Below, one piece after another: positions 28,303 through 53,440 of a DNA stretch of 64,000 nt (position 1 is its first letter; each line of letters opens with the position of its first letter). Position numbers and translations under genes: made by a program. A model generated the notes under the pieces. That model was not told the DNA's origin. It made no database searches and was given only the letters and a program-made list of their open reading frames with translations. Location: contig CABYHW010000001.1 in assembly GCA_902518705.1 (NCBI GenBank), positions 50,270-114,269 of the forward strand, in the 5' to 3' direction. The stretch comes from an uncultured Alphaproteobacteria bacterium. GTDB lineage: Bacteria > Pseudomonadota > Alphaproteobacteria > HIMB59 > GCA-002718135.

Positions 28303-29115
28303 ATGAAATTTGAAAGTAATAAAAAATTTTACCGCACAATTTGCATTTCGGATACCCACCTAGGAACCAGTGGTTGTAAAAGCAAAATGCTTTTAGAATT
28401 CTTAGAAGAAACAGATTCGGAATATTTATTTTTAGTAGGCGACATTGTTGATGGATGGCGCATGCGTAAGAAAATGTATTGGCCACAAGAACATAACGAC
28501 GTGGTTCAAAAAGTTTTAAAGAAAGCGAAAAATGGAACTAAGGTAGTGCTTATCCCAGGAAATCATGATGAAGTATTAAAAGATTTTACAAATTTTTCCT
28601 TTGGAGAAATTTCAATAAAAAATGAAGATACGCATCAATTAGCTGATGGAAGGAAAGTGCTGATTACACACGGAGATGAATTTGATGCTGTGATCATTAA
28701 TGCGAGGTGGTTAGCCAAAGTGGGATCAGCACTTTATGAATATTTACTAAAGTTAAATAATGTATTCAATTTTATTCGACGAAAGATGGGCTTGTCTTAT
28801 TGGTCACTGTCTCAATATTTAAAAAAGAAAACTAAGCATGCAACAAACTTTATTAGTAATTTTGAGTTTGCTGTATCTGACAGAGCTAGAAGAGAAAATG
28901 CCGATGTTGTTGTGTGCGGGCATATACATAGACCAGAAATAAAGGAATTAAATGGTGTTCTCTATTGTAATGATGGTGACTGGATTGAAAGTTGCACAGC
29001 ACTCGTTGAAGATGAAATTGGCAATTTATCAATTCTTAATTGGCCCGAAGAAAGAGAAAAATTAAAATTAATTTCTTTAGAAGAAAGACGAAAAATAAAA
29101 GAGGATGCAGCCTAA
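28303..29115 (+). CDS. plcP: PlcP-type metallophosphoesterase (phospholipase C for lipid remodelling), copy 1
   Basis: A 270-residue calcineurin-like phosphoesterase with all metal motifs: ISDTHLG (16-22), VGDIVDGW, IPGNHDE, THGDEFDAV and CGHIHRPE. The pattern RTICISDTHLGTSGCKSKML and YCNDGDWIESCTALVE matches alphaproteobacterial PlcP, which removes phospholipid headgroups to give diacylglycerol under phosphate starvation, rather than true LpxH. It is about 70% identical by eye to the second copy at 35555-36361. It overlaps the glycosyltransferase gene by 11 bp; that pairing is the basis for choosing PlcP over LpxH. Confidence 0.85.
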   Translation: MKFESNKKFYRTICISDTHLGTSGCKSKMLLEFLEETDSEYLFLVGDIVDGWRMRKKMYWPQEHNDVVQKVLKKAKNGTKVVLIPGNHDEVLKDFTNFSFGEISIKNEDTHQLADGRKVLITHGDEFDAVIINARWLAKVGSALYEYLLKLNNVFNFIRRKMGLSYWSLSQYLKKKTKHATNFISNFEFAVSDRARRENADVVVCGHIHRPEIKELNGVLYCNDGDWIESCTALVEDEIGNLSILNWPEEREKLKLISLEERRKIKEDAA

Positions 29116-30106
29116 AAAAATCGCATTAATTAGTGATGCGTGGGTTCCTCAGGTAAATGGCGTAGTTACGACATTTCAAAGCGTTATACCTATTCTAGAA
29201 AAAAAAGGTTTTGAAATTAAAATATTACATCCTGAGATGTTTAATAATTTTAGTTATCCTAGGTACAAAGAAATAAAGATTTCTTACAACACTAAGAAAG
29301 TTACTGAAAAATTTTTTAAAGAATTTAATCCAGATATTGTTCATATAATGACTGAAGGTCCAGTAGGTTTTGCTGGTCGTAAGTACTGTCTTAATAATAA
29401 ACTACAATATACTTCTTCCTTTCACACTCGTTTTCCTGATTATATTAAACAAAGAGCTTTTATTCCAAAGAGATTTACTTATTCCATATTAAGAAAACTA
29501 CATAGTGATTCTGAAAGAGTTCTTGTTCCATCAGTTTCAATGCTAAATGAGTTAAAAAAATATAATTTTAAAAATTTAGTAGTTTGGAACAGAGGTGTTG
29601 ATACAGAATTATTTAATCCAAATAAAAGAGATATAAACAGCAAGGATACTCAGCTGACTTATGTTGGAAGAGTAGCAATTGAAAAAAATATTGAAGAATT
29701 TTTAAAACTTAAAGGAAATTATAATAAAATAGTTGTGGGGGATGGTCCTGAATTAGAAAAATATACTAATAAGTATCCTGAAGTAAATTTTGTTGGTTTA
29801 AAAACCGGAGAAGAATTAGCAAAGTATTATGCAAACGCAGATGTGTTTGTATTTCCTTCTAAGACAGACACTTTAGGAAATGTAATACTTGAAGCATTGG
29901 CTAGTGGAACACCAGTTGCTGCATATCCAGTAACTGGGCCTATAGATGTATTAACAGATGAGAAGATTAACACTTTAGATAATGACTTATTACAATCAAT
30001 TAAAAAAGCGCTTAAAGTAAAAAGGGTTGATTGTAGAAATTTTACACTTAATTTAACATGGGATAAATGTGTGAAAGAATTTTTAGAATACATGGTAAAC
30101 GTCTAG
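29105..30106 (+). CDS. agt: Agt-type glycosyltransferase (GT4), copy 1
   Basis: A 333-residue GT-B glycosyltransferase. The N-terminus IALISDAWVPQVNGVVTTFQ and the donor-binding C-terminal half (YVGRVAIEKNIEEFL, VVGDGPELEKY, FPSKTDTLGNVILEALASGTP) match GT4 enzymes paired with PlcP, which glycosylate diacylglycerol to make non-phosphorus glycolipids (glucosyl- or glucuronosyl-DAG). It overlaps plcP by 11 bp and is followed 20 bp later by an aquaglyceroporin gene. The sugar donor cannot be told from sequence. A paralogue lies at 34563-35558. Confidence 0.85.
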   Translation: MQPKKIALISDAWVPQVNGVVTTFQSVIPILEKKGFEIKILHPEMFNNFSYPRYKEIKISYNTKKVTEKFFKEFNPDIVHIMTEGPVGFAGRKYCLNNKLQYTSSFHTRFPDYIKQRAFIPKRFTYSILRKLHSDSERVLVPSVSMLNELKKYNFKNLVVWNRGVDTELFNPNKRDINSKDTQLTYVGRVAIEKNIEEFLKLKGNYNKIVVGDGPELEKYTNKYPEVNFVGLKTGEELAKYYANADVFVFPSKTDTLGNVILEALASGTPVAAYPVTGPIDVLTDEKINTLDNDLLQSIKKALKVKRVDCRNFTLNLTWDKCVKEFLEYMVNV

Positions 30107-34562: not shown

Positions 34563-35558
34563 TTAATTTTTTGCATTTACAATATTTGATAGAAATTGAT
34601 TTGCACATTTATCCCAAGTAAATTGCATTGCAAATTTTCTACAATCATTTCTATCAATCTTTAAAGCTTTTTTAAGTGATTTTTCAATATTGTTATCAAG
34701 GGTGTCAATTACTGTGTTTTTTAAAATATCTATAGGACCTGTTACTGGATATGCTGCCACTGGTGTGCCAGATGCTAATGACTCTAAAATTACATTTCCA
34801 AATGTATCTGTTTTAGATGGGAATACCAAGGTTTCAGCATTTGCATAATATTTTGCTAAGTCTTGACCTTTTTTCATACCTACAAAAGAAACGTAAGGAT
34901 ATTTCTTTTGTAATCGTTGTTTTTCTGGACCATCTCCAACAACAATTTTATCCATTTTGGTTTTAATTTCTAGGAATGCTTCAATATTTTTTTCTAGAGC
35001 AACTCTACCGATGTAAACAATGTACTTTTTCATTCCTTTTCTTCTTTTTAAAGGATGAAATAATTCAGTATTAACACCTCTTGACCAAATTTTAAGATTT
35101 TGAAATTGATATTTCGTTAATTCGTCACGCATAGATACTGTTGGGACCAATACATTGCATGCATTTTTATGAAAATTTTTTAAAAATGAATACCCAATTA
35201 TTTTTGGTATCATTATTCTTTGCTCTAAATATTCTGGAAATCTCGTATGAAAAGAGGTTGTATATCTCAACTTATTATTCTCACAAAATTTTTTCCCCGC
35301 TATTCCAACTGGTCCTTCAGTAGCGATATGTATAAAATCTGGATCAAAATTATTAAAAAAATTTTCTGTTATTTTTTTTGTATTAATTGCTAGTTTTATT
35401 TCTTTATACCAGGGATAGCTAAAATTAGTAAACATCATTGGGTGAAGTATGTCTATTTCATTCTTTTCTTTTAAAAATGGATTAATATGTTGATATGTAT
35501 TTACCACACCATTAACTTGGGGAAGCCAAGCATCGGTAATGATTGCTAATTTTTTCAC
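34563..35558 (-). CDS. agt: Agt-type glycosyltransferase (GT4), copy 2
   Basis: A 331-residue GT4 enzyme that is a close paralogue of the protein at 29105-30106. The same blocks occur: IITDAWLPQVNGVVNTYQ at the N-terminus, PWYKEIKLAINTKKITENFF, YIGRVALEKNIEAFL, VVGDGPEKQRLQKKYP and FPSKTDTFGNVILESLASGTPVAAYPVTGPIDIL (in outline). It should glycosylate diacylglycerol released by PlcP. It overlaps plcP2 by 4 bp and follows it on the minus strand, so each copy keeps the plcP-then-agt order. Keeping two pairs may give different sugar headgroups. Confidence 0.85.
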   Translation of the reverse strand: MKKLAIITDAWLPQVNGVVNTYQHINPFLKEKNEIDILHPMMFTNFSYPWYKEIKLAINTKKITENFFNNFDPDFIHIATEGPVGIAGKKFCENNKLRYTTSFHTRFPEYLEQRIMIPKIIGYSFLKNFHKNACNVLVPTVSMRDELTKYQFQNLKIWSRGVNTELFHPLKRRKGMKKYIVYIGRVALEKNIEAFLEIKTKMDKIVVGDGPEKQRLQKKYPYVSFVGMKKGQDLAKYYANAETLVFPSKTDTFGNVILESLASGTPVAAYPVTGPIDILKNTVIDTLDNNIEKSLKKALKIDRNDCRKFAMQFTWDKCANQFLSNIVNAKN

Positions 35559-36361
35559 ACTGCTACACTTTCTGGTATTTTGTTATATTTGTTGTGAAAA
35601 ATTTTTTCTCTTTCAATCGACCAGTCAATAAGAGATAATTGTCCCTCTTTATTTTCCACTAGCGCAGAACAACTCTCAACCCAATCACCATCATTGCAAT
35701 ATAACACTCCATTTAATTTTTTTATAACGGGCTTATGAATATGGCCGCAAACAACAACATCGGCATTTACTCTTTTAGCACTATCAGATACGGCAAACTC
35801 AAAGTTAGAAATAAAATTCGTGGCTCTTTTTGTTTGATGTTTGAGAAATTGAGATAATGACCAATAAGATAAACCTAGTTTTCTTCTGACAAAATTTAGA
35901 TAGTTATTCAACTTTAATATAAATTCGTATAGGGATGACCCAATACTTGCCAGCCATTTAGCGTTTAATATAACTGCATCAAATTCATCACCATGTAAAA
36001 CAAGGGCTTTTCTCCCATCAGCTAATTTGTGTGTAAACTTATTTTTTATTGATATATTCCCTAGTGAAAAACTTGTGTAACTTTTTACTAGTTCGTCATG
36101 ATTACCTGGGATAAATATTACTTTTGTGCCTTTTCTTGCTTTACGCAAAATCTTCTGGATAATGTCATTATGAGTTTGATGCCAATAAATTTTTTTTTTC
36201 ATTCTCCATGCATCAATAATATCGCCAACTAAAAATAAATATTTTGAATCTGTTGATCTCAAAAATTCAAGAAGCATTTCACTCTTGCTATTTTCTGTTC
36301 CAAGATGAAGATCAGATATCCATATAGTTCTATAATATGAAACTGATTGCTGATCTTTCAT
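35555..36361 (-). CDS. plcP: PlcP-type metallophosphoesterase, copy 2
   Basis: A 268-residue paralogue of the protein at 28303-29115, with ISDLHLGTENSKSEM, VGDIIDAWRM, IPGNHDE, LHGDEFDAV, YWSLSQFLKHQTKRATNFIS and CGHIHKPV all conserved; calcineurin-type metal ligands are complete. Role: phospholipid headgroup removal for lipid remodelling under phosphate starvation (family knowledge). A good PHO box lies 27 bp upstream of its ATG, in contrast to the poorer candidate before copy 1, so copy 2 may be the more tightly starvation-controlled pair. Confidence 0.85.
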   Translation of the reverse strand: MKDQQSVSYYRTIWISDLHLGTENSKSEMLLEFLRSTDSKYLFLVGDIIDAWRMKKKIYWHQTHNDIIQKILRKARKGTKVIFIPGNHDELVKSYTSFSLGNISIKNKFTHKLADGRKALVLHGDEFDAVILNAKWLASIGSSLYEFILKLNNYLNFVRRKLGLSYWSLSQFLKHQTKRATNFISNFEFAVSDSAKRVNADVVVCGHIHKPVIKKLNGVLYCNDGDWVESCSALVENKEGQLSLIDWSIEREKIFHNKYNKIPESVAV

Positions 36362-38928: not shown

Positions 38929-39981
38929 ATGGAAATTACAATTCTAATTTTTTTATTTGGTGGTCTTTTTTTAGGTTGGTCACTTGGTGCCAATGATGCA
39001 GCAAATGTTTTTGGAACTGCAGTTGGAACACGAATGGTTAGTTTCACAAGTGCAGCAATAATTTGTAGTGTCTTTGTTATTCTAGGTGCAATTATTAGCG
39101 GAGCAGGTACAACAGAAACCTTAGGAAAGTTAGGTGCTATTAATGCATTGCCTGGTGCTTTTGCAGCATGTGTTGCTGCAGGAATATCTGTTTATTTAAT
39201 GACTAAAGTTGGCTTGCCTGTTTCAACAACGCAAGCGATTGTTGGAGCAATTGTTGGTTGGAATTTATACACGGGATCTTCAACTAATCTTCAAGTTTTA
39301 ATTACTATTTTAGGAACATGGATACTCTGTCCTATTATTGCAGGAGTTATTGCAATGGGTTTATTTACTTTTACAAAAAGAGTTATACTCAATAGAAAGT
39401 TACATATTCTCAGACTTGATGCCTATACAAGAACAGCTTTACTTTTAGCGGGTGCTTTTGGTGCTTATAGTTTAGGTGCAAACAATATTGCCAATGTAAT
39501 GGGTGTCTTCGTACCTATATCACCGTTTACTGATGTTACTATTGGAAATTTATTTGTCTTTTCCTCAAAAGAACAATTATTTCTGCTGGGTGGTTTAGCA
39601 ATAGCTGTTGGTGTTTTTACTTACTCGAAAAGAGTTATGTTTACCGTGGGTAATGATCTCTTAAAAATGACACCAGTGGCAGCATTTATTGTTGTTATAT
39701 CGCATTCTATTGTTTTATTTTTATTTGCATCCCAGGGTATAAGTGCTTTTTTACAATCTATAAATCTTCCCTCTATACCTTTGGTACCAGTATCAAGTTC
39801 CCAAGCTGTTGTCGGCGGCGTAATTGGAATTGGTCTTTTAAAAGGAGGAAAAGAGGTTCAATGGTCAATTGCAGGTAGAATTTCTTTGGGTTGGATGACG
39901 CTACCTATAATTGCAGCTTTAATTTCTTTAATTGTTTTATTTATTCTAGAAAATATTTTTAATTTAACGGTCTCTTTTTAA
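38929..39981 (+). CDS. pit: PiT-family inorganic phosphate transporter
   Basis: A 350-residue low-affinity phosphate:cation symporter with about ten hydrophobic helices. The duplicated PiT signature is present in both halves: GWSLGANDAANVFGTAVG (about 16-33) and YSLGANNIANVMGVFV (about 180-195). GLPVSTTQAIVGAIVGW and VPVSSSQAVVGGVIGIG are the other repeated pair. It forms an operon with DUF47 behind a PHO box. Its stop overlaps the convergent phosphatase gene by 4 bp. Confidence 0.95.
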   Translation: MEITILIFLFGGLFLGWSLGANDAANVFGTAVGTRMVSFTSAAIICSVFVILGAIISGAGTTETLGKLGAINALPGAFAACVAAGISVYLMTKVGLPVSTTQAIVGAIVGWNLYTGSSTNLQVLITILGTWILCPIIAGVIAMGLFTFTKRVILNRKLHILRLDAYTRTALLLAGAFGAYSLGANNIANVMGVFVPISPFTDVTIGNLFVFSSKEQLFLLGGLAIAVGVFTYSKRVMFTVGNDLLKMTPVAAFIVVISHSIVLFLFASQGISAFLQSINLPSIPLVPVSSSQAVVGGVIGIGLLKGGKEVQWSIAGRISLGWMTLPIIAALISLIVLFILENIFNLTVSF

Positions 39982-40502
39982 TTAACTGCTCGATAAGAAA
40001 AAATAAAATCTTCTTGGATTTTTGACTCAATAGCTCCTTTTCTTCTTGATCGTACTAGATCAATAGCTTCTTGTTTTTCATAATTAAATTCAACAAGTAA
40101 AATAGCAGCTATAGTGCCAGCTCTTCCTTTTCCTCCACGGCAATGTAAAACTATGTTTTTATCATCTATCAATTCGTTCTTTAATAAAACTTTTGTTGTT
40201 TCCCATTTATATTTAAAATCTTTATCTGGTGCTCCCATGTCATAAATGGGTAAATGGTACCAATGTAATTTATGTTCATAAATATTTTTGACAAACAAAG
40301 TTTTATCACACAATTTTTCAAATTCGCTATCTTCAACAAAAGAAGTAATAGAACTACAATTATTATTTTTAAATATTTCTAATTCGTTTGCTAAAATTGT
40401 TTCTTCAAATAAACCATTAGAGTTAAGACCTGGGAAAGAAGTTAATATAATTTTGCCTGCAAATGACTTAGAGTCAATAAAATCATAATTGCTAAATTGC
40501 AT
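39978..40502 (-). CDS. Dual-specificity / CDKN3-like protein phosphatase
   Basis: A 174-residue protein with the Cys-based phosphatase signature LHCRGGKGRAGTIAA: Cys121-x5-Arg127, followed by Ala-Gly instead of the common Ser/Thr-Gly. IYDMGAPD upstream (about 87-93) can supply the general acid. It starts directly after the stop of the PhnZ-like gene and is probably co-transcribed with it. Whether it acts on phosphoprotein or on a small phosphate ester is unknown; in this phosphonate setting a small-molecule substrate is worth considering. No signal peptide. Confidence 0.8.
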   Translation of the reverse strand: MQFSNYDFIDSKSFAGKIILTSFPGLNSNGLFEETILANELEIFKNNNCSSITSFVEDSEFEKLCDKTLFVKNIYEHKLHWYHLPIYDMGAPDKDFKYKWETTKVLLKNELIDDKNIVLHCRGGKGRAGTIAAILLVEFNYEKQEAIDLVRSRRKGAIESKIQEDFIFSYRAVN

Positions 40503-41078
40503 TTACGCTTGTTTAGCTAAAAAAGACTGTCTTGCTTCTTCTAAATAGGGGCGGAAATGTTCAACATCGGGAGTTTTTTTATCTAGAATTTTTGCTAAAT
40601 CATCAAATCTTCTAAGCTCTACTGCTTCATCCATAAAAGGTTTGCTTATAAACGCATCTGCTTCTTCTTTTGTGAAAGGACCACCTTGAACTTTTAACGA
40701 AAGTTTCGATGCTTCTGATAGACTATCATAATAACCTTCTTCAACACTTGATAAATATCTTTTTGAGTCAACATGTGCTCTAATTGGTAGAATAACATCC
40801 TCACCAAAATATTTTTTTAAAAAATCAGCACCTAAATTTTCATGATGACCATCTTTCCCTTCATGAATGGGATCGCCGTCCTCATAGATAAGGTGGCCAA
40901 CATCATGCAGTAATGCTGCAGCAATTGTTGGTCCTGGTAATTTATGTTTTTCAGCAAGTTCAGCACATTGGAGTGCGTGCTCAAGCTGGGTCACATCCTC
41001 ATTACCATATTGAATATCAGCACCTTTTGTTTTCAAAAGATGTAAGAGATAGTCTACAATATTTTCTTCCATTTTCAT
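40503..41078 (-). CDS. PhnZ-type HD-domain mixed-valent di-iron oxygenase
   Basis: A 191-residue HD-domain protein that lines up with PhnZ along its length. The predicted di-iron ligands fall at PhnZ-like positions: His34, His58-Asp59, His79, His102 and Asp159. The PhnZ-specific Tyr24 and Glu27 and a Lys in HVDSKRYL (106) are also kept, as are SEASKLSLKVQGGPF and FRPYLEE. PhnZ-type enzymes use O2 to cleave the C-P bond of 1-hydroxyphosphonates (hydroxy-AEP to glycine and phosphate; relatives act on hydroxymethylphosphonate or the trimethylated analogue). The partner 2-oxoglutarate dioxygenase (PhnY*/TmpA type) is not in this window, so the exact substrate is open. Confidence 0.82.
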   Translation of the reverse strand: MKMEENIVDYLLHLLKTKGADIQYGNEDVTQLEHALQCAELAEKHKLPGPTIAAALLHDVGHLIYEDGDPIHEGKDGHHENLGADFLKKYFGEDVILPIRAHVDSKRYLSSVEEGYYDSLSEASKLSLKVQGGPFTKEEADAFISKPFMDEAVELRRFDDLAKILDKKTPDVEHFRPYLEEARQSFLAKQA

Positions 41079-41166
41079 TTATAATTAACTTATTAGAAAA
41101 TAAATTCAATTCCAACTTTAATAAGATTGATCAAATTTATAATAATATTTATTAAGTAAATATTTA

Positions 41167-42264
41167 ATGGATAAAAAATTATTAACCCCTGGTCCTCTCA
41201 CGACATCGATGTCAACAAAAGAGGCTATGCTTCATGATTGGGGTTCGAGAGATACAAAATTTATTGATCTCAATGCATCAATTAGAGATTCCCTTGTTAA
41301 ATTAATAGACGGTGAAGATAAATATCAATGTGTTCCAATGCAGGGAAGTGGAACTTTTGCCGTAGAGTCGATGGTAAGCTCTCTTACTCAAAAAGATTCT
41401 AAAATTCTGATTCTGATCAATGGTGCTTACGGACAAAGAATGAAAAAAATGTGCACATATTTAGGGAGAGATTTTATTGAATATGAAGTTGCTGAACATG
41501 AAGTACATGACATCAATAAAATTGAAGACTTAATTGATAGCAACAACTTAACACACGTCTTTGCTGTATATTGTGAAACAACATCGGGTATTTTAAATCC
41601 TATTGAAGACATTGCAAAATTGGTTGAGGGGAAAAATTTATCGTTATTCATCGATGCAATGAGTGCCTTTGGTGCATTACCCTTAAGTTCTAAAACAATT
41701 ACTTTTGATGCTGTAGCCGCTTCATCAAACAAATGCTTAGAAGGTGTGCCAGGTGTTGGTTTCATTCTTGTTAAAAATGAAGTTATTCAAAATGCAAAAG
41801 GCAATAGTCACTCACTAAGTCTAGACTTGTATGATCAATGGCAAGCAATGGAAAAAAATAAACAATGGCGATTTACACCTCCAACACACGTATTAGCTGC
41901 ATTCAACCAAGCTATTGAAGAACATAAAGAACAAGGCGGTGTAAAAGGAAGAGGTAAAAGATATAAAAAAAATTGTGAAATTATTTGTAATGGAATGAAA
42001 GAGTTGGGATTTGAGCAACTACTTCCTGATAATTTACAAGCACCAATTATTATTACGTTTAAACAACCTAATGATCCTAAATTTAACTTTGAGAAATTTT
42101 ATAATGCTCTTAGTGAAAAAGATTTTTTAATTTATCCAGGAAAACTAACAGTGGCAGAAACTTTTAGAATTGGGTGTATTGGTAATTTAGATGAACAAGA
42201 CATGATGGATACAATAAAAGCTGTAAAAGAAGTCGTTACTGAATTGGGATTAACATTAAACTAA
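41167..42264 (+). CDS. phnW: 2-aminoethylphosphonate:pyruvate transaminase
   Basis: A 365-residue fold-type I PLP aminotransferase. The N-terminus LLTPGPLTTSMSTKEAMLHDWGSRD, the PLP aspartate in LFIDAMSAFG (Asp163) and the Schiff-base lysine in ASSNKCLEGVPGVGFIL (Lys189) are those of PhnW. It converts 2-AEP and pyruvate to phosphonoacetaldehyde and alanine. There is no phnX in the window; the product would go to PhnY and PhnA (48.5-51.2 kb). It leads a plus-strand operon with an AllA-like gene (7-bp gap) and a GpdQ-like gene (8-bp gap). It is divergent from the PhnZ-like gene. Confidence 0.95.
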   Translation: MDKKLLTPGPLTTSMSTKEAMLHDWGSRDTKFIDLNASIRDSLVKLIDGEDKYQCVPMQGSGTFAVESMVSSLTQKDSKILILINGAYGQRMKKMCTYLGRDFIEYEVAEHEVHDINKIEDLIDSNNLTHVFAVYCETTSGILNPIEDIAKLVEGKNLSLFIDAMSAFGALPLSSKTITFDAVAASSNKCLEGVPGVGFILVKNEVIQNAKGNSHSLSLDLYDQWQAMEKNKQWRFTPPTHVLAAFNQAIEEHKEQGGVKGRGKRYKKNCEIICNGMKELGFEQLLPDNLQAPIIITFKQPNDPKFNFEKFYNALSEKDFLIYPGKLTVAETFRIGCIGNLDEQDMMDTIKAVKEVVTELGLTLN

Positions 42265-42271
42265 CAAAATA

Positions 42272-42904
42272 ATGACAAAAGAAATTGAAATACCATTAGT
42301 TAAAGCAACAAATGAAAATCTTAAAGGATACGGATATTTAATCGATAGTTTTGAAAATAGTGATATTGAAATTGTTACTTGGCCAAAACAAGGATGGCGC
42401 GACATAGAAGAGGGAACTGGTAATGAAGGTGGAACTACCGAAGGTTCTTTTGATACCTGGTGGCAAGGTGATGTGCTTTATGGACAAAATAATGCTGTCC
42501 AACATAAGAGCGATTATGAAGTAGATGGAAAATATATACTGGGTTATGCCAATAACCCCGATCAAGAATTGCAAAAAGATAAATATTCAGATCCAACAAA
42601 AATATTTCTATGGCATGCAAATTATCATCCTGATGGAGGTCAGCTTTTTTTTCCTGCAGAAAATAAACCATTTATTTGTCCTTTAGCTTTACCAACAGAC
42701 GACATCGAACCAGAACATTTCAAAGCATTTTATTGTGATGGATCAAAAGGTTTGTATATTCATCCAAACATTTGGCATGAAGGGGTGTTTCCAGTTAAAG
42801 AAAAACAATCATTTCATGGAAAACAAGGTAAAGTACATGCAAGAGTTAGCATCGACTTAAAAGAGGAATTTAATAAGTATATTTATTTTAAAACTGCGAT
42901 CTAA
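42272..42904 (+). CDS. Ureidoglycolate lyase (AllA)-like cupin protein in a phosphonate operon
   Basis: A 210-residue protein resembling the ureidoglycolate hydrolase/lyase family, mainly in its second half: FKAFYCDGSKGLYIHPNIWHEGVFPV and HARVSIDLKEEFNKYI correspond to the AllA NYHRNVWHHPLF and C-terminal segments. The first half carries an extra ~40-residue insert (about 30-75, rich in Gly, Asp and Trp). No other allantoin or ureide gene is near. Its place between phnW and a phosphodiesterase, with gaps of 7-8 bp, suggests an uncharacterised step in AEP ester use. I cannot assign a reaction. Confidence 0.75.
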   Translation: MTKEIEIPLVKATNENLKGYGYLIDSFENSDIEIVTWPKQGWRDIEEGTGNEGGTTEGSFDTWWQGDVLYGQNNAVQHKSDYEVDGKYILGYANNPDQELQKDKYSDPTKIFLWHANYHPDGGQLFFPAENKPFICPLALPTDDIEPEHFKAFYCDGSKGLYIHPNIWHEGVFPVKEKQSFHGKQGKVHARVSIDLKEEFNKYIYFKTAI

Positions 42905-42912
42905 TTATAAAT

Positions 42913-43713
42913 TTGTATAAAATAATGAAAATTATTCATCTTTCAGACCCTCATATTTATATAGATAAGATTCATGGCATAGATCCTGTCAGTAAATTTA
43001 AAAAAGCATTAAGTCATATAAAAAATAATCATGGTGATGCGGATTTATTTGCCATCACTGGTGATATTACAGACTTAGGTGATAAAGATTCTTATCAGTT
43101 ATTTACAAAAATAATTGATGAAGCAGATCTGCCAAAGAATTTAAATCCTCAACTAATTATAGGTAATCATGATAACAGAGATGAGTTTAAAATAAACTTT
43201 CCTAATATTGAAACCGATCCAAATGGATTTATTCAATACTTTAAGGATATAGATAATAAACGTTTAATTTTTATAGATACTAATCTGATTAACACTCACC
43301 AAGGACATTACTGTGAAGAGAGGCAAGAATGGTTAAATAATATTTTAAGTAAGACTAATACAGATACGTATATCTTTATGCATCATAATCCACTAGCATT
43401 AGTAAAAGAGGAAAGTGATGGAATAGGATTACAACAAAAAAAAGAGTTTCAACAAATTTTAACTAAAAATAACAAGATAATAAAACATATTTTTTTTGGT
43501 CATCAACACATTACAAGTTCTGGCTCTTATTGTGGTATTACTTTTTCTTCCCCAAGAAGTACTTGGTCTCCTCTAATACCTAACTTTTCAAATGAATATC
43601 GTTTAGGAACTGCTAATACAGATACAAATTATAATGTTGCAATAATTCGATCTGACGCCTTAATTATTCATACAGAGGATTTTTTAAAAACAGAAATTAA
43701 TTGGTTTAAATAA
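42913..43713 (+). CDS. GpdQ-like class III phosphodiesterase
   Basis: A ~266-residue calcineurin-like phosphoesterase; Met5 (ATG at 42925, IMKIIHLSDPHIY) is a likely alternative start. Metal motifs are complete: SDPHIYID, TGDITDLGD, IGNHDNRDEF, FMHHNPLAL and FGHQHITSSG. This set, with the MHHNPL stretch, matches the GpdQ/CpdA class, whose members hydrolyse glycerophosphodiesters and phosphonate monoesters. It lies in the phnW operon and the locus also encodes a Ugp-type importer. I infer that it cleaves an imported ester of AEP, such as glyceryl-AEP, releasing AEP for PhnW. Cyclic nucleotide hydrolysis is the alternative. Confidence 0.8.
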   Translation: MYKIMKIIHLSDPHIYIDKIHGIDPVSKFKKALSHIKNNHGDADLFAITGDITDLGDKDSYQLFTKIIDEADLPKNLNPQLIIGNHDNRDEFKINFPNIETDPNGFIQYFKDIDNKRLIFIDTNLINTHQGHYCEERQEWLNNILSKTNTDTYIFMHHNPLALVKEESDGIGLQQKKEFQQILTKNNKIIKHIFFGHQHITSSGSYCGITFSSPRSTWSPLIPNFSNEYRLGTANTDTNYNVAIIRSDALIIHTEDFLKTEINWFK

Positions 43714-44826: not shown

Positions 44827-45939
44827 CTAATAAAGTCCCATTGATTTAGCAGAAGAGATGAAGGCTTCTTTATTGCCAATAAAGTTTTTACCTCGTTCCC
44901 CTAAAAACGCATCATCTACTATATTATTCCATTCTTGAACAGGAACTTTTATTTCATTTAAGTTAAGAGGAACCTCTAAAGAACGCATAAATTCACTCAG
45001 ATGATTTGCGGCATTCTCTAGGTTATCGTTAAAAATTAGTTTTAGTCTTTCTTCAGCTACACTATCAATTCCAACCATACTTTTAGTAATCATGGGTAAT
45101 GTAAATGAGCAAGCAATACCATGTTGAATGCCGTAATTGAGCGTCACAGGGTATGATAGATTATGCGCAATAGCAGTTTTTGTATTGGAAAATGCTAAGC
45201 CAGCATGAACGCATGCCAGTGCAATGTTTGAACGTAATTCAACGCTTCTTAAATCTTTAGCGAGAAGTGGTAAATTTTCTAATACTAATTTTGATGCTTG
45301 TATTGCATGAGAAGCAGAAATTGGGTTTGCATTAATATTCCAAATACTTTCCATTGAATGAGAGAGAGCATCTAAACCTGTTGAAATGGTCAAGCCTAAA
45401 GGCTTATCAACCATAATTGATGGATCGATAATTGCTTTTTCTGCATAAAGAGACTTATGCGCCAAAGATAATTTATTGTTTTTTTCTTTATCCCAAATTG
45501 TGGCCCAACACGTAAGCTCACTTGATGTTCCTGAAGTTGTAGGTATTGCGATAATCTTGATTGGATTTTCGACTCTTGGACTTTTCTTATTGCGAACGAA
45601 ATCTGTTAGATATTCTTGTTTATCTTTAAAAGCAGCAATTGCTTTAGCTGTGTCTGTAACAGAGCCACCACCTATAGCTAAAATATAATCTACCGATTCA
45701 TTGATTGAAGAAAATTTTTTTTGTAGCTCTAAAATATCCTTATAATCTGGATTAGGCTGAACATCCGTCATAATGGATAGTGGTGGATTTGAAGAAGATT
45801 TTAATTCATCGCTATATTTTTTAAAAATTTCTTCTGGATGAGTGATTATGATGTAGTTCTTATTTTTAAGAGCATCATGTACTTCTTTAAATCTATTTTC
45901 TCCAAAGATAATTTCAACAGGATTAAAATAATTCCACAT
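44827..45939 (-). CDS. Iron-containing alcohol dehydrogenase, phosphonoacetaldehyde-reductase-like
   Basis: A 370-residue group III Fe-ADH. The opening WNYFNPVEIIFGENRF is typical of phosphonoacetaldehyde reductases of the PhpC type. NAD-binding GGGSVTDTAKA (90-100) and metal ligands Asp190, His194, His259 and His273 are intact. PhpC reduces phosphonoacetaldehyde to 2-hydroxyethylphosphonate in biosynthesis. No PEP mutase or decarboxylase is present here, and PhnY-PhnA are, so the reverse reaction (oxidising 2-hydroxyethylphosphonate to feed PhnY) is my preferred role. It lies 4 bp after the MetE-like gene. Confidence 0.8.
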   Translation of the reverse strand: MWNYFNPVEIIFGENRFKEVHDALKNKNYIIITHPEEIFKKYSDELKSSSNPPLSIMTDVQPNPDYKDILELQKKFSSINESVDYILAIGGGSVTDTAKAIAAFKDKQEYLTDFVRNKKSPRVENPIKIIAIPTTSGTSSELTCWATIWDKEKNNKLSLAHKSLYAEKAIIDPSIMVDKPLGLTISTGLDALSHSMESIWNINANPISASHAIQASKLVLENLPLLAKDLRSVELRSNIALACVHAGLAFSNTKTAIAHNLSYPVTLNYGIQHGIACSFTLPMITKSMVGIDSVAEERLKLIFNDNLENAANHLSEFMRSLEVPLNLNEIKVPVQEWNNIVDDAFLGERGKNFIGNKEAFISSAKSMGLY

Positions 45940-45943
45940 TATA

Positions 45944-47023
45944 TTAAATTGATTTTGCCGCTTTAGTTAAAATTGTCATTTTCTCAATTGCTTGTTCTCG
46001 AGTAAAGAAACCTAAACCACAATCTGGTGCAGCTATTAAGCGGTGTTCATCAATATGTTCAAGTGAATCTTTGATACGAACTCTTACTTCTTCAACAGAT
46101 TCCATTCTGCTTTTTGCAATATCAATAAATCCAAAAATTACTTTTGTTTTAGTAAATTTTTCTAAAAGATTTAAATCATTATGCCTATGTGAATCTTCTA
46201 AAGATACTTCATCAATAGTTGAATCATCTACAAGTGATGCAATTCTATCATAAGCATCTAAATCAGCCTTTTTATAACCTGCTGAATCTAATGAATTAGG
46301 ATAACCACAACAAATATGGCAAACACGTTGCACTTCTTTAGGTATACCATGCATCATTCTTTCTAAATTTTCCATACCATATGAATGAGCTTCATCGGGC
46401 TTTCTAGCAAATACTGGTTCATCAATTTGAATATACTGACAACCTGCATCTACAAGTGCTTTAACTTCTTTATTAAGGGCTAATGCTAAATCAAAACCAA
46501 GTTTTTTCATGTCATCATAGTAGTTGTTCGCAATTGAATCTGTTATTGTCATTGGTCCAGGTAGGGTAATTTTAACTGGATTTTTTGTAAATTGTTGTGC
46601 GCTCTTCCAGTCTAGATGCATACGTATTTCTTTACTTGAAATCGGTGCAACAATAGTTGGAAGATCAGCTTCGAACGCGCCTTGTCTTACTGACTTATGT
46701 GTAACTTCTTTAAAGCTTACTCCATTTAAAAATCGACATTGATATAATACGTAACTCTCACGTCTGACTTCTCCATCTGTTGGAACATCAATACCCGCAT
46801 TTACCTGATCAGTTATAACTTCTTTAATTGCTGCTAAAAATAATTTTTCAGCATCTGCACCTGCAGACTCTAACGCTTTTTCATATGCGCCAGGTGACCA
46901 ATTTGATAATAATCCTTTTGACGCTTTTCTCTCTTCTTCTGATTTTGTCCCTAAAAACCAATCTTGAATAGGTGTTTGTTTCGGTTTTGGATAAGCACCT
47001 ATGGTAGTAGTTGTAAGAGGCAT
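45944..47023 (-). CDS. Core-MetE (cobalamin-independent methionine synthase C-terminal type) protein
   Basis: A 359-residue protein equivalent to the catalytic C-terminal barrel of MetE, without the N-terminal tetrahydrofolate-anchoring half of the ~750-residue enzyme. Zinc ligands are visible: His236 and Cys238 in VCHICCGYP, Cys335 in APDCGLGFF, and a likely Glu in EVSLEDSHRH. DEPVF (about 201-205) is also conserved. Such core proteins transfer methyl groups to thiols from varied donors. It lies in a run with the Ugp-like binding protein and Fe-ADH genes, so a role with methylated phosphonates is possible; ordinary methionine synthesis is the conservative reading. Confidence 0.82.
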   Translation of the reverse strand: MPLTTTTIGAYPKPKQTPIQDWFLGTKSEEERKASKGLLSNWSPGAYEKALESAGADAEKLFLAAIKEVITDQVNAGIDVPTDGEVRRESYVLYQCRFLNGVSFKEVTHKSVRQGAFEADLPTIVAPISSKEIRMHLDWKSAQQFTKNPVKITLPGPMTITDSIANNYYDDMKKLGFDLALALNKEVKALVDAGCQYIQIDEPVFARKPDEAHSYGMENLERMMHGIPKEVQRVCHICCGYPNSLDSAGYKKADLDAYDRIASLVDDSTIDEVSLEDSHRHNDLNLLEKFTKTKVIFGFIDIAKSRMESVEEVRVRIKDSLEHIDEHRLIAAPDCGLGFFTREQAIEKMTILTKAAKSI

Positions 47024-47110: not shown

Positions 47111-48364
47111 TTACATAAGATCGTTTATTTCTTCCATCATTTCTTCTTGGAGATCACCCATATCATCAGCGTCGCCTGTAGCAATTTCTTCTGTGTAATC
47201 ATAGATTACCTGTGTAACAGCTAATCCATTTTCTCCAGGATATGCAAACCAATCTGCAAGAAGTGGAAGTTGTTCAACAGCAGTAAGTTTATTAGGGTTT
47301 TTACTATAGAAATCTCCTAATAATTCATTCGCTGCTTTGTTTGGTGGAACATATCCAGTTGTTTCAGCAACTAATGCAGCACCGATACCTGATGTAATGA
47401 ACTTTAAGAAAGTCCATGCAGCATCAACTCTTGCTGGATCATCAGATGTAGACACTAACATTGCAGCGTTTCCACCTGCTGGTAATCTTGCTGGTGTTCC
47501 ATTGTTAACTCCAGCCATTCCAGGGAATGGTGCAGTTTTTAAAACAAAGTCTGCCTTTGCAGCATTAACTGAACCCAAGCTTGAAGTAGACCAGAACATC
47601 ATACCAATAGTACCAGCGTTAAACGCAGCTTGACCATCAGCAATTGAATAGTTTGGCATATTACATCCGCTCATGATTGATTTCATTTGCTCTAACGTTG
47701 CAAGTCCTGCATCACCACCCATATTTACAGCTCCATCTTTAACCATTGGAACATTCTGAGTATGCATTAATGCTTGGTGGAACCAGTTACCTGTAATGTT
47801 CCAACCAAAGTATAGAGTTCCTTTACCTGCTGCTTCCAATTTATTACATGCTGCAATAACTTCGTCCCAGTTAGTTGGAATACTATCTACACCTGCTTCA
47901 GCTAATAGATCCATGTTATAATATCCAACTGGTGTTGATACAGAAAATGGTAATCCATAAACTTCACCACCGAATGTTGAAAGACTTAACATAGCAGAAT
48001 GGTAACCATCTTTTTCAAAAGCTGCCTCTTTTGCAATAAATGGCTCTAAAGACTTAGCAATACCTTTATCTACTAGAGGTGCTTGTCTGTTAAGACCTTG
48101 CATTGTTACATCTGGTAAATTACCTGAAGTAGACTCTCTGAAGATTGTTGCAGTTGCATCTTCATAGTTTTCATAAGTTGCTCTAAATTTAACTTGAATA
48201 TCTGGATGTGCTTTTTCAAACTCTGGCATAATAGCTTGAAACGTAACATCGAATAATCCTGAATAAGGATAAGCTACTTCTATTTCAATAGACTTAGCTG
48301 AATTAACAGAACCATAAAAACCGAAAGCTAATACGGCTGCCAATCCTGTAATTAATTTTTTCAT
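47111..48364 (-). CDS. UgpB-like periplasmic binding protein
   Basis: A 417-residue type I-CUT1 binding protein with a Sec signal peptide (about 1-22, ending VNSA). GLPFSVSTPVGYYNMDLLAEAGVD (about 117-140, in outline) is close to UgpB LSQPFNSSTPVLYYNKDAF and GKGTLYFGWNITGNWFHQALM matches its SGWQGW ligand region. UgpB binds sn-glycerol 3-phosphate and glycerophosphodiesters. With the permeases and ATPase at 51.4-54.3 kb this completes a Ugp-type importer, split around the phnYA genes. A PHO box precedes it. The likely ligand is a glycerol phosphate or phosphonate ester; sugars cannot be excluded. Confidence 0.85.
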   Translation of the reverse strand: MKKLITGLAAVLAFGFYGSVNSAKSIEIEVAYPYSGLFDVTFQAIMPEFEKAHPDIQVKFRATYENYEDATATIFRESTSGNLPDVTMQGLNRQAPLVDKGIAKSLEPFIAKEAAFEKDGYHSAMLSLSTFGGEVYGLPFSVSTPVGYYNMDLLAEAGVDSIPTNWDEVIAACNKLEAAGKGTLYFGWNITGNWFHQALMHTQNVPMVKDGAVNMGGDAGLATLEQMKSIMSGCNMPNYSIADGQAAFNAGTIGMMFWSTSSLGSVNAAKADFVLKTAPFPGMAGVNNGTPARLPAGGNAAMLVSTSDDPARVDAAWTFLKFITSGIGAALVAETTGYVPPNKAANELLGDFYSKNPNKLTAVEQLPLLADWFAYPGENGLAVTQVIYDYTEEIATGDADDMGDLQEEMMEEINDLM

Positions 48365-48500: not shown

Positions 48501-49943
48501 TTACCAAGGTAGTGAGAAAGTTTTTACATTAGTAAAGCTTTTCATTGCTTCAATTACACCTTCTTTATAACCAAGACCTGAATCTTTAATTCCTCCAAAA
48601 GGAGACATTTCAATTCTATAGCCTGGAACCTCCCAAATATTTACTGTACCAACATTTAAACCTTGAATATATTTTTTTGCTCGCATGAAGTTATTTGTAC
48701 ATACACCAGATGATAATCCGAATGCGGTTGAATTAGATATTTTCATTACAGCTTCATCGTCATTAGGCACACGAATGATTGGGATAACTGGACCAAATGT
48801 TTCTTCTAAAACTAATTCACTTTTAGGATCAACATGATCTACAACTATTGGAGGTAACAAAGCACCCTCTCTTCCAGGGTGGTATAAAATTTTTGCACCA
48901 TCTTCTTCTGCCATTGAAACTCTTTTATCAAAAAGTTCTGCAGCTTGAGCATTAACAACCGTACCTAAGTCTGTTTCCATATTCATGGGATCACCAAATT
49001 TAATTTTCTTAGCACGCTCAAGAGCCATTTCAACAAATTGATCTGCAATGGATTCTTGAACCAGTATTCTTTTAACAGCTGTACAACGTTGACCAGAGTT
49101 TTTCGTTGCTCCAGTAACAGCTAGCTCAACAGCTTTTTTAAGATCATCACCATCTAAGTCATTTAAAACAATTAATGGATCATTACCACCAAGCTCAAGA
49201 ACTGTTCTTTTGTATCCAGCTTGTTCAGCGATTAATTTTCCTACACCTACACTGCCTGTGAAAGTAATTAGATCAATGTTTGGATTTTTGATCATTTCTG
49301 ATCCGATATCTTGAGGCCAGCCTGTAACAACTGAAAACATTTCTGGTGGTAAACCAGCTTCATATAAAACATCAGCAAGAACCATTGCGGTTAAGGGAGT
49401 TAACTCTGTCTGCTTACAAACAGTACAATTGTTTGTTGCAATTGATGGAGCAATTTTATGTGCTACCATATTCAAAGGATGATTAAATGGAGTGATTGCT
49501 GAGATTGCCGTTAAAGGTTCTCTTATGGTAAATATTTTTCTGGCTTTTCCATGTGGAGTTAAATCACAAGAAAATATTTCTCCATCATCAAGAATACAAA
49601 GTTGAGCCGTTAATGAAAATACATCGAAAGCTCTTCCTACTTCGTATAAAGAATCTTGTTTTGAGATACCAAGTTCTAAAGTAATAATATCAGAAATTTC
49701 TTCTTTTCTTTTAACAAGTACTTCTGCAGCAGTTTGAAGAATTTTTTGTCTCTCATATCTTGTAAGTTTAGGTTGGTAATTTGCAGCAATATCTAGAGCC
49801 TTTCTTGCATGCTCAGCAGTACCGGCAGGGACCGTACCGATTACTTCACCTGTAAAAGGGTACTCAACATTTATTGTTTTATCAGAAGTAACTTTTTCTC
49901 CAGCAATACGCATTGCTTCATTAATCATTTTTTTGTGCATCAT
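48501..49943 (-). CDS. phnY: Phosphonoacetaldehyde dehydrogenase
   Basis: A 480-residue NAD(P)-dependent aldehyde dehydrogenase. The general base Glu250 in [10 protein letters not shown], catalytic Cys287 in [14 protein letters not shown] and the [12 protein letters not shown] cofactor loop are all present. The sequence is of the ALDH type found beside phnA, and its start overlaps the phnA stop by 4 bp, so PhnY (phosphonoacetaldehyde to phosphonoacetate) is the best assignment. MMHKKM gives two closely spaced possible starts. Another aldehyde specificity cannot be excluded by sequence alone. Confidence 0.88.
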
Positions 49944-51181
49944 AGGGCTCCGTTAATTGCATAGTAAAATGCATCATAGTTATATAATTGTTTGCTAGTA
50001 TCTATGTTTTGTAATTTTAAATTTGATATGAATGGCACTTCTCTTTCATGAAGTCCACCGTGTGAACGTAAAGGTTCATTTAATCCAGAAAGATTGTGTT
50101 TATCTTCCGATGAACCAATGGTCATAAATTCTGAAGACATACATATTATGTCTCCCATTCTATCAGGGGGTAAATTATAAGTAGAGCATCCTTCGTCTTT
50201 TGTTAAAACAACTTCTATATCTTTTATTTCTTTGATAGCATTTACAACTGAATCTATCTTACTTTTGTCTTCTAAATAAATTGTTGCAAAAGAACCAAGT
50301 GAACCATGATGTACGACATATGGATCTGTAATTGGTAGAATAACTTTAGCCATGTTTTGTTCAAATTTATTATCTAAATAATCTTGTAAAAATATTGCAT
50401 TGGGTGAACCATCTTCTTTTGATTTTGGTTTCATACCGTGATCTGCTGTAATAATTATAGAAACATTCTCCTTATTTAAAAGACCAATATATTTATCAAA
50501 CATTGCATAAAATTTATTTGCTGTTTCATTTCCTGGTGCATATTTGTGTTGAATGTAATCCGTAGTCGATAAATACATGATATTTGGTTTAAACTCTTCA
50601 AGAAGCTTTACACCTGCAGCCATTACAAATTCAGAAAGTCCTTCAGAATATACTTCTGGCACTGGCATCCCCAACCAATCGTTTACATTATCTATACCAT
50701 TAAGATCTTTTGATGCTTGATCAGATTTTTCAGCAGAAAAACAAATAGCTCTCTCATCATCAAAACTTAATCCGTTTCCTAAAAGTGTTCGCAGCTTATC
50801 TTTTGCAGTAACAAGAGCAATTTTAGAACCAGAATTGTAAAATTTTTCAAAAATAGTTGGTGCTCGCATATATTTTGGGTCATTCATCATTACTTCTTCA
50901 CCAGTCTCAGGTGTATAAAAGAAGTTTCCGCATATACCGTGAACAGAACTTGGTTGGCCTGTTACAATCGAAATGTTATTTGGATTTGTAAAACTTGGAA
51001 TAGCGCTGTGAACTAGTAGGTTTTCACCACTTGCAATTAGTTTATCAAGATTTGGTGTAAGATTGGATTTTGATGCTTCTTCGAGATACTCTTTTTGACT
51101 ACCATCAAGGCAAATCACAATAGCAGTTTTTGAGAAATTACTTGGATATTCTCTTTTATTAATTTCTAAGTTATCGGACAC
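49940..51181 (-). CDS. phnA: Phosphonoacetate hydrolase
   Basis: A 413-residue alkaline-phosphatase-superfamily enzyme that splits phosphonoacetate into acetate and phosphate. Zn ligand Asp26 in [13 protein letters not shown] and nucleophile Thr65 in [24 protein letters not shown] (in outline) match known PhnA, followed by [26 protein letters not shown] and the C-terminal [14 protein letters not shown] with further zinc ligands. Translation starts with GTG at 51181. With PhnW and PhnY it completes the hydrolytic 2-AEP route. It is divergent from the ugpC-like gene across a 176-bp region with a PHO box. Confidence 0.95.
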
Positions 51182-51357: not shown

Positions 51358-52491
51358 GTGGGGACTATATCACTTAAAAATATTTCAAAGTCATTTGGGT
51401 CTACACAAGTACTTAATAATTTGAATGTTGATATAAATGATGGAGAATTCTTAACATTAGTTGGTCCATCTGGTTGTGGTAAATCTACGTTACTTAGAAT
51501 AATTGCAGGATTGGAACAACAAACTTCAGGCGATGTTTTAATAGATAATAAAAATGTAAATAGAGTTAGAGCCAGTGAAAGAGATTTGGCAATGGTATTC
51601 CAGTCATATGCTCTTTATCCTCATCTTACAGTAAGAAGAAATTTGGAAACTCCATTAAGACTAAGAGATTATAATGCATTTGAAAGACTTCCCTTAATTG
51701 GTAATTTTTCTCCAAGCAAAAAAGAGAAAACAGAATCTATAAATCAATTAGTAAATAAAACTTCTGAAACTCTAAAAATTTCAGAACTATTAGATAGAAA
51801 ACCTGGACAATTGTCAGGCGGTCAAAGACAAAGAGTTGCTCTTGGTCGTGCTATGGTTAGAGAGCCTGTTGCCTTTTTAATGGATGAACCTCTTTCAAAT
51901 TTAGATGCAGCTTTGAGAGTTCACATGCGATCCGAACTATCTGAACTTCATAATTCACTTAAAACTACTTTTGTTTATGTAACACATGATCAAGCAGAAG
52001 CGTTAACTATGTCTTCTAGAATGGCTGTTATGATTGATGGAAATTTATTACAACTAGATACGCCTCAAGAAGTATATGACAATCCTTCCTCATTAAGTGT
52101 AGCTCAATTTGTTGGAAGTCCAAAAATAAATATATTTAAAGGAACTGCGGACTCTGGTGGGACGGTAAGTTTTCTCAACGTTAATCTTAAAAGAAAAAGT
52201 TCTGAAAGTAATACAGATTTACATATTGGTATTCGACCAGAACATTTAGAAATTACAAATGAAAGTAATGAAAATACATTTAGTGGAACGGTTGCATATA
52301 GAGAAAATTTAGGTTCAGATATTTTCTTTCATGTAAATATTGATGACGGTTCAAATAAAATAATTGTAAGGGGCTTACCACAATTTACACACCAAATTTC
52401 AAACGGTTCTAGTGTAAATATAAAAAGAGTTTCAGATAAAGCATTACTATTTAATCAAGCAGGAATGAGAGTTCAATTTACTAATGCATAA
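51358..52491 (+). CDS. UgpC/MalK-type ABC transporter ATPase
   Basis: A 377-residue CUT1-family ATPase. Walker [10 protein letters not shown] is at 36-44, signature LSGGQRQRVALGRAM near 157, Walker B PVAFLMDEPLSNLDA near 177, and a C-terminal TOBE/OB domain with GIRPEHLEI near 290. An insert around residues 105-125 (FERLPLIGNFSPSKKEKTES) is longer than in E. coli UgpC. Start is the GTG at 51358, with a strong Shine-Dalgarno just upstream. It overlaps the permease gene by 8 bp. It should energise the Ugp-type importer. Confidence 0.88.
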   Translation: MGTISLKNISKSFGSTQVLNNLNVDINDGEFLTLVGPSGCGKSTLLRIIAGLEQQTSGDVLIDNKNVNRVRASERDLAMVFQSYALYPHLTVRRNLETPLRLRDYNAFERLPLIGNFSPSKKEKTESINQLVNKTSETLKISELLDRKPGQLSGGQRQRVALGRAMVREPVAFLMDEPLSNLDAALRVHMRSELSELHNSLKTTFVYVTHDQAEALTMSSRMAVMIDGNLLQLDTPQEVYDNPSSLSVAQFVGSPKINIFKGTADSGGTVSFLNVNLKRKSSESNTDLHIGIRPEHLEITNESNENTFSGTVAYRENLGSDIFFHVNIDDGSNKIIVRGLPQFTHQISNGSSVNIKRVSDKALLFNQAGMRVQFTNA

Positions 52492-53440
52492 TTCAAAAGC
52501 TCACATATGGTTTATTGCACCAGCAATCATACTGATGATAATTATTTTAATCTTTCCTCTTTTTCTTGCAGGAGGAATTTCTTTTACTGACTATAATTTA
52601 GGAAACAAAACATTCGAGTGGGTTGGACTAGAAAATTATGACAAAATGTTCAATCGAAAAACATATGTCAAAATGATTTGGGCCACAGCAACGTATGTTA
52701 TTGTTGTCGTTCCAATTTCTGTTGTACTTGGATTATGTGCTGCTATGCTCTTAAATTCACTAAGGTTTGGCGCTGATATATATAAAACAATTTTCTTTCT
52801 TCCAGTTATGGCAACTCTTCTTGCCATGGCAATTGCATGGGAATTTACTCTTCATCCAACATTAGGAATTGTAAATAGTTTTTTAGCAAATGGGTGTGGA
52901 GGAGTTAGAGAATTCATTCTTGGTTTTCATTGGTTACCGTGGGTAGACTCACAAGAAAGCTGGTATGCTGTAGCATGTGCAAACAACATGGATTTTCCAT
53001 ATTGGTTAAAACAAAAAAATACTGCGATTTGGACAGTATGTTTCATAGGAATTTGGCAGGCTTTTGGTTTTAACATGGTTTTATATTTAGCTGGCTTAAC
53101 AAGTATACCAAGAGAGTTATACCAAGCTGCAGAAATGGATGGAGCTAAATCTACTTGGGAGCAATTTAAACTTGTTACATGGCCAATGCTTGGTCCAACA
53201 ACGTTGTTTGTTGTCACTATTACTACAATTAGAACGTTTCAAGTATTTGATACCATCGAAATACTTACTAAAGGTGGTCCGTCAAAAACAACGTATGTCA
53301 TGATGTATGCAATCTTTGAAAAAGCTATTCAACAAAACTTAACAAGTATCGGCGCAGCAATCACTGTTGTCTTTATTGGATTTATTCTTGTGTTAACGTT
53401 TTTCCAAAGATATGTCATTGAGAAGAGGGTTCATTATTAA
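52484..53440 (+). CDS. UgpA-like ABC transporter permease
   Basis: A 318-residue CUT1 permease with six hydrophobic helices. The EAA loop reads YQAAEMDGAKSTWEQFKLVTWPMLGP (in outline), and the N-terminal AHIWFIAPAIILMIIILIFPLF is typical. An extra ~40-residue segment around 125-170 (NGCGGVREFILGFHW onward) lies in the periplasmic loop between helices. It forms the heterodimeric channel with the next protein, whose start shares one base with this stop. Confidence 0.87.
   Translation: MHNSKAHIWFIAPAIILMIIILIFPLFLAGGISFTDYNLGNKTFEWVGLENYDKMFNRKTYVKMIWATATYVIVVVPISVVLGLCAAMLLNSLRFGADIYKTIFFLPVMATLLAMAIAWEFTLHPTLGIVNSFLANGCGGVREFILGFHWLPWVDSQESWYAVACANNMDFPYWLKQKNTAIWTVCFIGIWQAFGFNMVLYLAGLTSIPRELYQAAEMDGAKSTWEQFKLVTWPMLGPTTLFVVTITTIRTFQVFDTIEILTKGGPSKTTYVMMYAIFEKAIQQNLTSIGAAITVVFIGFILVLTFFQRYVIEKRVHY

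Follow-up and report, generated by a model that had tools for sequence, protein, structure and literature searches.

R-HAEP is a known substrate of the HD-domain oxygenase PhnZ, and ocean surveys count PhnZ as evidence for oxidative AEP use. Among the representatives of this family with solved structures are PhnZ of the uncultured bacterium HF130_AEPn_1 (PDB 4MLM, 4MLN, 4N6W, 4N71), which is partnered by PhnY*, and TmpB of Leisingera caerulea (PDB 6NPA). In both proteins, a tyrosine and a glutamate (Y24/E27 in PhnZ and Y30/E33 in TmpB) belong to a substrate-sensing loop, the glutamate of which contacts the substrate amine (PMC8177086). A homologue of phnZ was reported in 24 of 75 phnWAY clusters, never together with pbfA, and its presence there was read as a means for the disposal of R-HAEP, which is not properly processed by PhnW–PhnX (PMC8154272). 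The PhnHD proteins of the TIGR03276 type, found for example in Achromobacter phosphonatase operons, have been discussed as enzymes without PhnY*, with HAEP as the predicted substrate favoured by an in silico ligand prediction (PMC11203657). Co-occurrence of phnZ with phnA or phnX was recorded at 30–50% (PMC9381506), and the publication on the phosphate/phosphonate island of HIMB59 leaves phnZ unmentioned (PMC10734472).

The phnZ gene analysed here is located in a window of 64,000 nucleotides (the whole stretch of DNA under study) from an uncultured, streamlined marine alphaproteobacterium of the order HIMB59. Its locus resembles the phnWAY clusters with phnZ in that phnW, phnY, phnA and a phnZ homologue share one neighbourhood and no pbfA was recognised among the neighbours, as far as their annotations tell; it differs from them in that phnZ and phnW are divergent and have genes for a cupin-like, a phosphoesterase and a phosphatase-like protein attached. 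With the TIGR03276 PhnHD proteins it shares the full ligand set, the neighbours from phosphonate catabolism, the lack of PhnY* and the proposed HAEP; unlike these, it stands beside phnW and a phnYA block rather than phnX. The original prediction described a PhnZ-type oxygenase that faces phnW and has no visible hydroxylase partner. The arrangement is real, but it is less odd than was implied: the TIGR03276 family has been modelled, and an orphan phnZ beside phnW is an arrangement already published, both as phnWAY–phnZ clusters and as PhnHD without PhnY* (PMC8154272, PMC11203657). The order-wide distribution of phnZ, the quantified lack of a hydroxylase in its subgroup and the link to AepXVW are the additions of the present analysis.

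Results

The reading frame of phnZ is intact and begins with ATG (Table 1). The best curated model for its product is TIGR03276, "phosphonate degradation HD-domain oxygenase"; the score of 201.5 bits is just under the cut-off of 214.6, while NF049941 (TmpB) and NF052439 (HMP dioxygenase, PhnZ1) give 154.5 and 152.5 bits, respectively, against cut-offs of 300. Among the PDB sequences, the matches are TmpB (2.6e-32) and PhnZ (7.5e-29 and 1.2e-28), each at ~36% identity, and the next one has an E-value of 0.15. All the residues on which the PhnZ-type identity had been based were confirmed in the protein: the diiron ligand set H...HD...H...H...D is complete (H34, H58, D59, H79, H102 and D159), Y24 and E27 make up the YxxE loop, which is kept in 10 of 10 aligned sequences of the order, and K106 lies within HVDSKRYL. 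The ligands, YxxE and the lysine are invariant in the alignment of the order, and the dN/dS values of 0.04–0.12 against close relatives indicate that phnZ is under purifying selection.

An AlphaFold2 model, for which 48 homologues were used and residue 1 was omitted from the sequence, reached a mean pLDDT of 93.3 and a pTM of 0.90. The ten best Foldseek matches of this model in the PDB are chains of TmpB, which ranks at the top, and PhnZ (TM ~0.85), with E-values from 5e-13 to 5e-11. Rank 11 is occupied by myo-inositol oxygenase (MIOX, E 0.024), which is the third known HD oxygenase, and HD hydrolases appear at E 0.2 or worse. Judged by its sequence and predicted fold, the phnZ product can be placed firmly in the PhnZ/TmpB family; a grouping with plain HD phosphohydrolases, named beforehand as the refuting outcome, is found in neither comparison, and the fold search led to the rejection of a plain HD phosphohydrolase.

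A variant of the hydrolase reading supposes that the protein is an HD phosphohydrolase or phosphodiesterase which acts on an intermediate of a phosphonate pathway, for example replacing PhnP in C–P lyase operons. Genes of the TIGR03276 type are indeed located directly behind phnM in many alphaproteobacterial C–P lyase operons (L089, L097, L098, L101 and others), and the ligand motif occurs also in some bimetallic HD hydrolases (PMC11203657). However, the Foldseek ranking, with TmpB and PhnZ followed by MIOX, the retained YxxE loop of the PhnZ/TmpB oxygenases and the independence of phnZ from C–P lyase in its own order, where no more than 12 of the 162 genomes, the host not among them, have PhnJ, make this variant very improbable.

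Table 1. Features of the phnZ locus in the window
Feature	Position	Strand	Evidence
phnZ, PhnZ/TmpB-family HD-domain mixed-valent diiron oxygenase (predicted)	40503-41078	-	191 aa, nearest model TIGR03276 Phn-HD
Divergent intergenic region phnZ–phnW, 88 bp, AT-rich	41079-41166	.	Sequence; probably both promoters
phnW, 2-aminoethylphosphonate:pyruvate aminotransferase	41167-42264	+	NF010006 511 bits (cut-off 296), TIGR03301 465 bits (cut-off 360.8)
Cupin-like protein, like C-terminal half of ureidoglycolate lyase	42272-42904	+	PF04115 8.6e-11 over residues 119-182
Calcineurin-like phosphoesterase, SpdA-like, third gene of phnW operon	42913-43713	+	PF00149 6.1e-17; NF050112 175.6 bits (under cut-off 400)
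Tyrosine/dual-specificity phosphatase-like protein	39978-40502	-	PF22784 7.7e-13
Phosphonate-associated Fe-alcohol dehydrogenase (PsrA-like)	44827-45939	-	TIGR03405 362 bits (under cut-off 423.7)
phnY, phosphonoacetaldehyde dehydrogenase	48501-49943	-	TIGR03250 797.6 bits (cut-off 635.65)
phnA, phosphonoacetate hydrolase	49940-51181	-	TIGR02335 469.4 bits (cut-off 407.55)
UgpB/MalE-like ABC substrate-binding protein beside phnYA	47111-48364	-	NF008211 66 bits, under cut-off; candidate uptake system
ABC transporter ATPase and two permeases	51358-54333	+	Three consecutive ORFs, ABC-transporter-like sequence; possible partner of the 47111-48364 protein

The gene order was described correctly in the original prediction: phnZ faces phnW on the opposite strand and lies back to back with the hydrolytic PhnWYA route, phnY and phnA being nearby, and all three of these genes exceed their curated cut-offs. 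The expression of phnZ and phnW may be coregulated from the region between them. The gene for the phosphatase-like protein joins the 3′ end of phnZ at a TAAATG junction. In 19 of 20 loci from the order it follows phnZ in the same orientation, and the two genes are probably cotranscribed.

On the other side, the cupin-like gene starts 8 bp past phnW, a position which is kept in the order, and its product is possibly an unrecognised phosphonate enzyme. A relative with 51% identity was seen ~7 kb from a phnZ–TauD pair in a gammaproteobacterial MAG (L204). As an alternative hydroxylase the cupin was set aside, because its relatives are placed only loosely near phnZ (7 kb off in L204, partial in L185).

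AepX (TIGR03261) was not found in the host genome, which is 70.75% complete. The phnYA genes are flanked by the gene for the UgpB/MalE-like binding protein and by the ABC transporter genes, and since no AepX was recognised, these may represent a phosphonate importer. The phosphonate block also contains a gene for a MetE-like protein (cobalamin-independent methionine synthase C-terminal; 45944-47023, minus strand), which is under all equivalog cut-offs. Elsewhere in the window, a metallophosphoesterase–glycosyltransferase gene pair is present in two copies of opposite orientation (28303-30106, plus strand, and 34563-36361, minus strand) around a polyphosphate-kinase-like gene.

In the order, phnZ was detected in 94 of 162 genomes, that is, in 94/110 genomes of the host family and in 0/52 genomes of the other (sister) family, for which the PhnA counts are 97/110 and 26/52. 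Both PhnZ and PhnA are present in 87 of the 110 host-family genomes (Fisher p 0.003, uncorrected for kinship and completeness). The phnZ block is repeated across the order, including the records of isolates AG-893-E11, AG-337-D08 and AG-470-M17 (L196–L198), and the same gene order in independent records and in other genomes rules out an artefact of assembly or binning. In the relatives, phnZ is further accompanied by genes for the AEP transporter AepXVW, for a phn_DUF6 membrane protein and for the aminophosphonate oxidoreductase TIGR03329; in all 13 host-family genomes having both genes, aepX is located within 1.1 kb of phnZ.

Placement of the phnZ product was addressed with a wide tree of 157 sequences, in which it is grouped with neither the TmpB clade nor PhnZ but lies among 65 sequences, including some from C–P lyase operons and some linked to phnWAY. 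When 2OG dioxygenase genes within 1.5 kb of the phnZ-like gene were counted, none was found in the 24 loci of the order or in the 55 other loci of the subgroup, in contrast to 34 of 36 loci of the TmpB clade; the remaining loci gave 17/54. The difference between 0/79 subgroup loci and 34/36 TmpB-clade loci is supported by a Fisher p of 4e-27, which ignores kinship, and the 0/24 count for the host order is independent of the tree. A tree of 51 rows likewise puts the phnZ product outside the TmpB and PhnZ groups, the latter being separate (100/98*). The best trees unite it with the TIGR03276 sequences, although the cut-off of this model is reached by no member of the order and the AU tests reject neither its joining with TmpB (p 0.15) nor with PhnZ (p 0.33) and do not confirm the strict TIGR03276 subgroup (p 0.09). 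From the sequence comparisons, we favour as the best reading that the protein belongs to a hydroxylase-free TIGR03276-like subgroup. For this probable subgroup, the orphan state is normal.

Two bacterial gene fusions came to light among the sequences compared. One of them (L172:1172-2491, plus strand) encodes a PhnZ–PhyH protein of 439 aa, HD followed by PhyH, in a gammaproteobacterial MAG; it groups with PhnZ in the tree and recalls the fungal PhoF fusion. The other (L185:6741-8492, plus strand) encodes a TauD–HD (TmpA–TmpB-like) protein of 583 aa.

The lack of a hydroxylase partner was confirmed beyond the window, with one correction. No such gene is present at the locus and none dedicated to this role was recognised elsewhere in the genome or in the order, but five other 2OG dioxygenases (three of the PhyH type and two of the TauD type) are encoded in the host genome. 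None of the five appears to be a convincing partner, although an unlinked PhyH may act as such. The proposed whole-genome search for PhnY* and TmpA homologues returned no PhnY*, which distinguishes the host from HF130_AEPn_1: with the PhnY*-type domain of the L172 fusion as the query, no match came up in the host genome (70.75% complete), the highest score in the order was 38 bits, and no close relative of PhnY* was found in its 162 genomes. The model NF052437 (methylphosphonate hydroxylase/PhnY, cut-off 500) gave at most 61 bits in 18 relatives; the L172 fusion protein scores 164 bits. For TmpA, the search yielded one TauD of the host (L006), the best NCBIfam match of which is TmpA at 317 bits, under the cut-off of 400.

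A complete oxidative route with an unlinked hydroxylase, in which a PhyH or a TauD encoded elsewhere hydroxylates AEP or TMAEP, could draw on the five dioxygenases of the host, on the TmpA score of this TauD and on the PhyH enzymes (up to 14) of near-complete relatives. Yet the TauD clusters with an L185 TauD that is unpaired and is separated from the Z-paired ones (99*; long branches), and its relatives at 48–52% identity are present in most genomes of the sister family, where PhnZ was not found. This disfavours it as an unlinked partner, and it is probably not TmpA; nor is there any TauD in the phnZ locus that would suggest a TmpA–TmpB pathway. Among the PhyH proteins of the host, one (PHYH1) is PHYHD1-like (1.3e-53), and a 93% complete genome (G109) combines PhnZ with a single PhyH, also of the PHYHD1-like type. 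Taken with the low scores of the PhnY model, these data render the unlinked route quite unlikely.

Three near-complete relatives (G011, G078 and G037) have 11–14 PhyH-type dioxygenases each per 1.6-Mb genome, which is unexpected for a streamlined lineage. In L192, a PhyH gene whose product is 39% identical to a host PhyH is located upstream of phnZ; it was not counted as a pair because of the gap of ~1.2 kb with an opposite-strand ORF in between.

Discussion

We suggest, with a probability of roughly 58%, that the phnZ product is an oxygenase acting on an imported C1-hydroxylated phosphonate, most likely R-HAEP, and that it serves PhnWYA as a tributary. In this model, a phosphonate already hydroxylated at C1 would be imported, R-HAEP most likely arriving together with AEP. 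The tyrosine of the YxxE loop would cap Fe2 until it is displaced by substrate binding, and the glutamate would meet the substrate amine; O2 would then bind to the freed Fe2 of the FeII/FeIII centre, the C1 hydrogen would be abstracted, and cleavage of the C–P bond would release phosphate and a carboxylate, which in the case of R-HAEP is glycine. AEP itself would be handled by the adjacent PhnW, PhnY and PhnA.

Of the two alternatives offered by the original prediction, the better fit is a substrate that carries its hydroxyl group before it reaches the enzyme. The other, in which both C–P cleavage chemistries operate as two complete AEP routes, is unsupported, since PhnY* was not found and AEP has no entry into the oxidative route without it. 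As to the substrate, an AEP-like amine suggests itself because the companions of phnZ in this lineage are phnW, AepXVW and the aminophosphonate oxidoreductase, and a separate enzyme for R-HAEP makes sense given that PhnW–PhnX does not properly process this compound.

Several points weigh against this explanation. R-HAEP is poorly documented in nature, and neither its measurement in seawater nor an assayed member of the TIGR03276 subgroup was found in the literature searched. Many relatives from the subgroup belong to C–P lyase operons and are not next to phnW. The substrate-binding residues are common to PhnZ, GmPhnZ and TmpB (PMC11203657) and thus do not discriminate between substrates. Finally, the host genome is incomplete and has no recognised AepX, and one of the mostly unassigned PhyH proteins known from near-complete relatives could hydroxylate a phosphonate.

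The substrate may also be another exogenous 1-hydroxyphosphonate, for example a longer 1-hydroxyalkylphosphonate or hydroxymethylphosphonate (HMP), which a PhnZ-type oxygenase would convert into formate and phosphate. In 15 of the 55 subgroup members outside the order, Glu27 is replaced by S, A, T, Q or H, and an amine may therefore not be obligatory for the subgroup; its hydroxylase-free members in C–P lyase operons point to a broad phosphonate setting, and GmPhnZ cleaves HMP as well as R-HAEP (PMC10574752). However, all aligned members of the order keep Glu27, their genes are linked to AEP genes and not to C–P lyase, and the HMP dioxygenase model is matched only far below its cut-off, which makes such a substrate somewhat unlikely for the protein in the window. 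It is unlikely that the hydroxylase-free subgroup as a whole is a distinct class for some other natural 1-hydroxyphosphonate, different from R-HAEP, HMP and hydroxy-TMAEP; if true, this would imply an unmeasured pool of dissolved hydroxyphosphonates.

Since phnZ-like genes occur without a hydroxylase in this lineage and in its probable subgroup, the phnZ counts obtained in ocean surveys may not report AEP oxidation and may instead show a capacity for the use of already-hydroxylated phosphonates. Should R-HAEP be the substrate, as we prefer to think, the phnZ genes of these bacteria would hint, at the genome level, that surface seawater contains a pool of hydroxyaminophosphonate.
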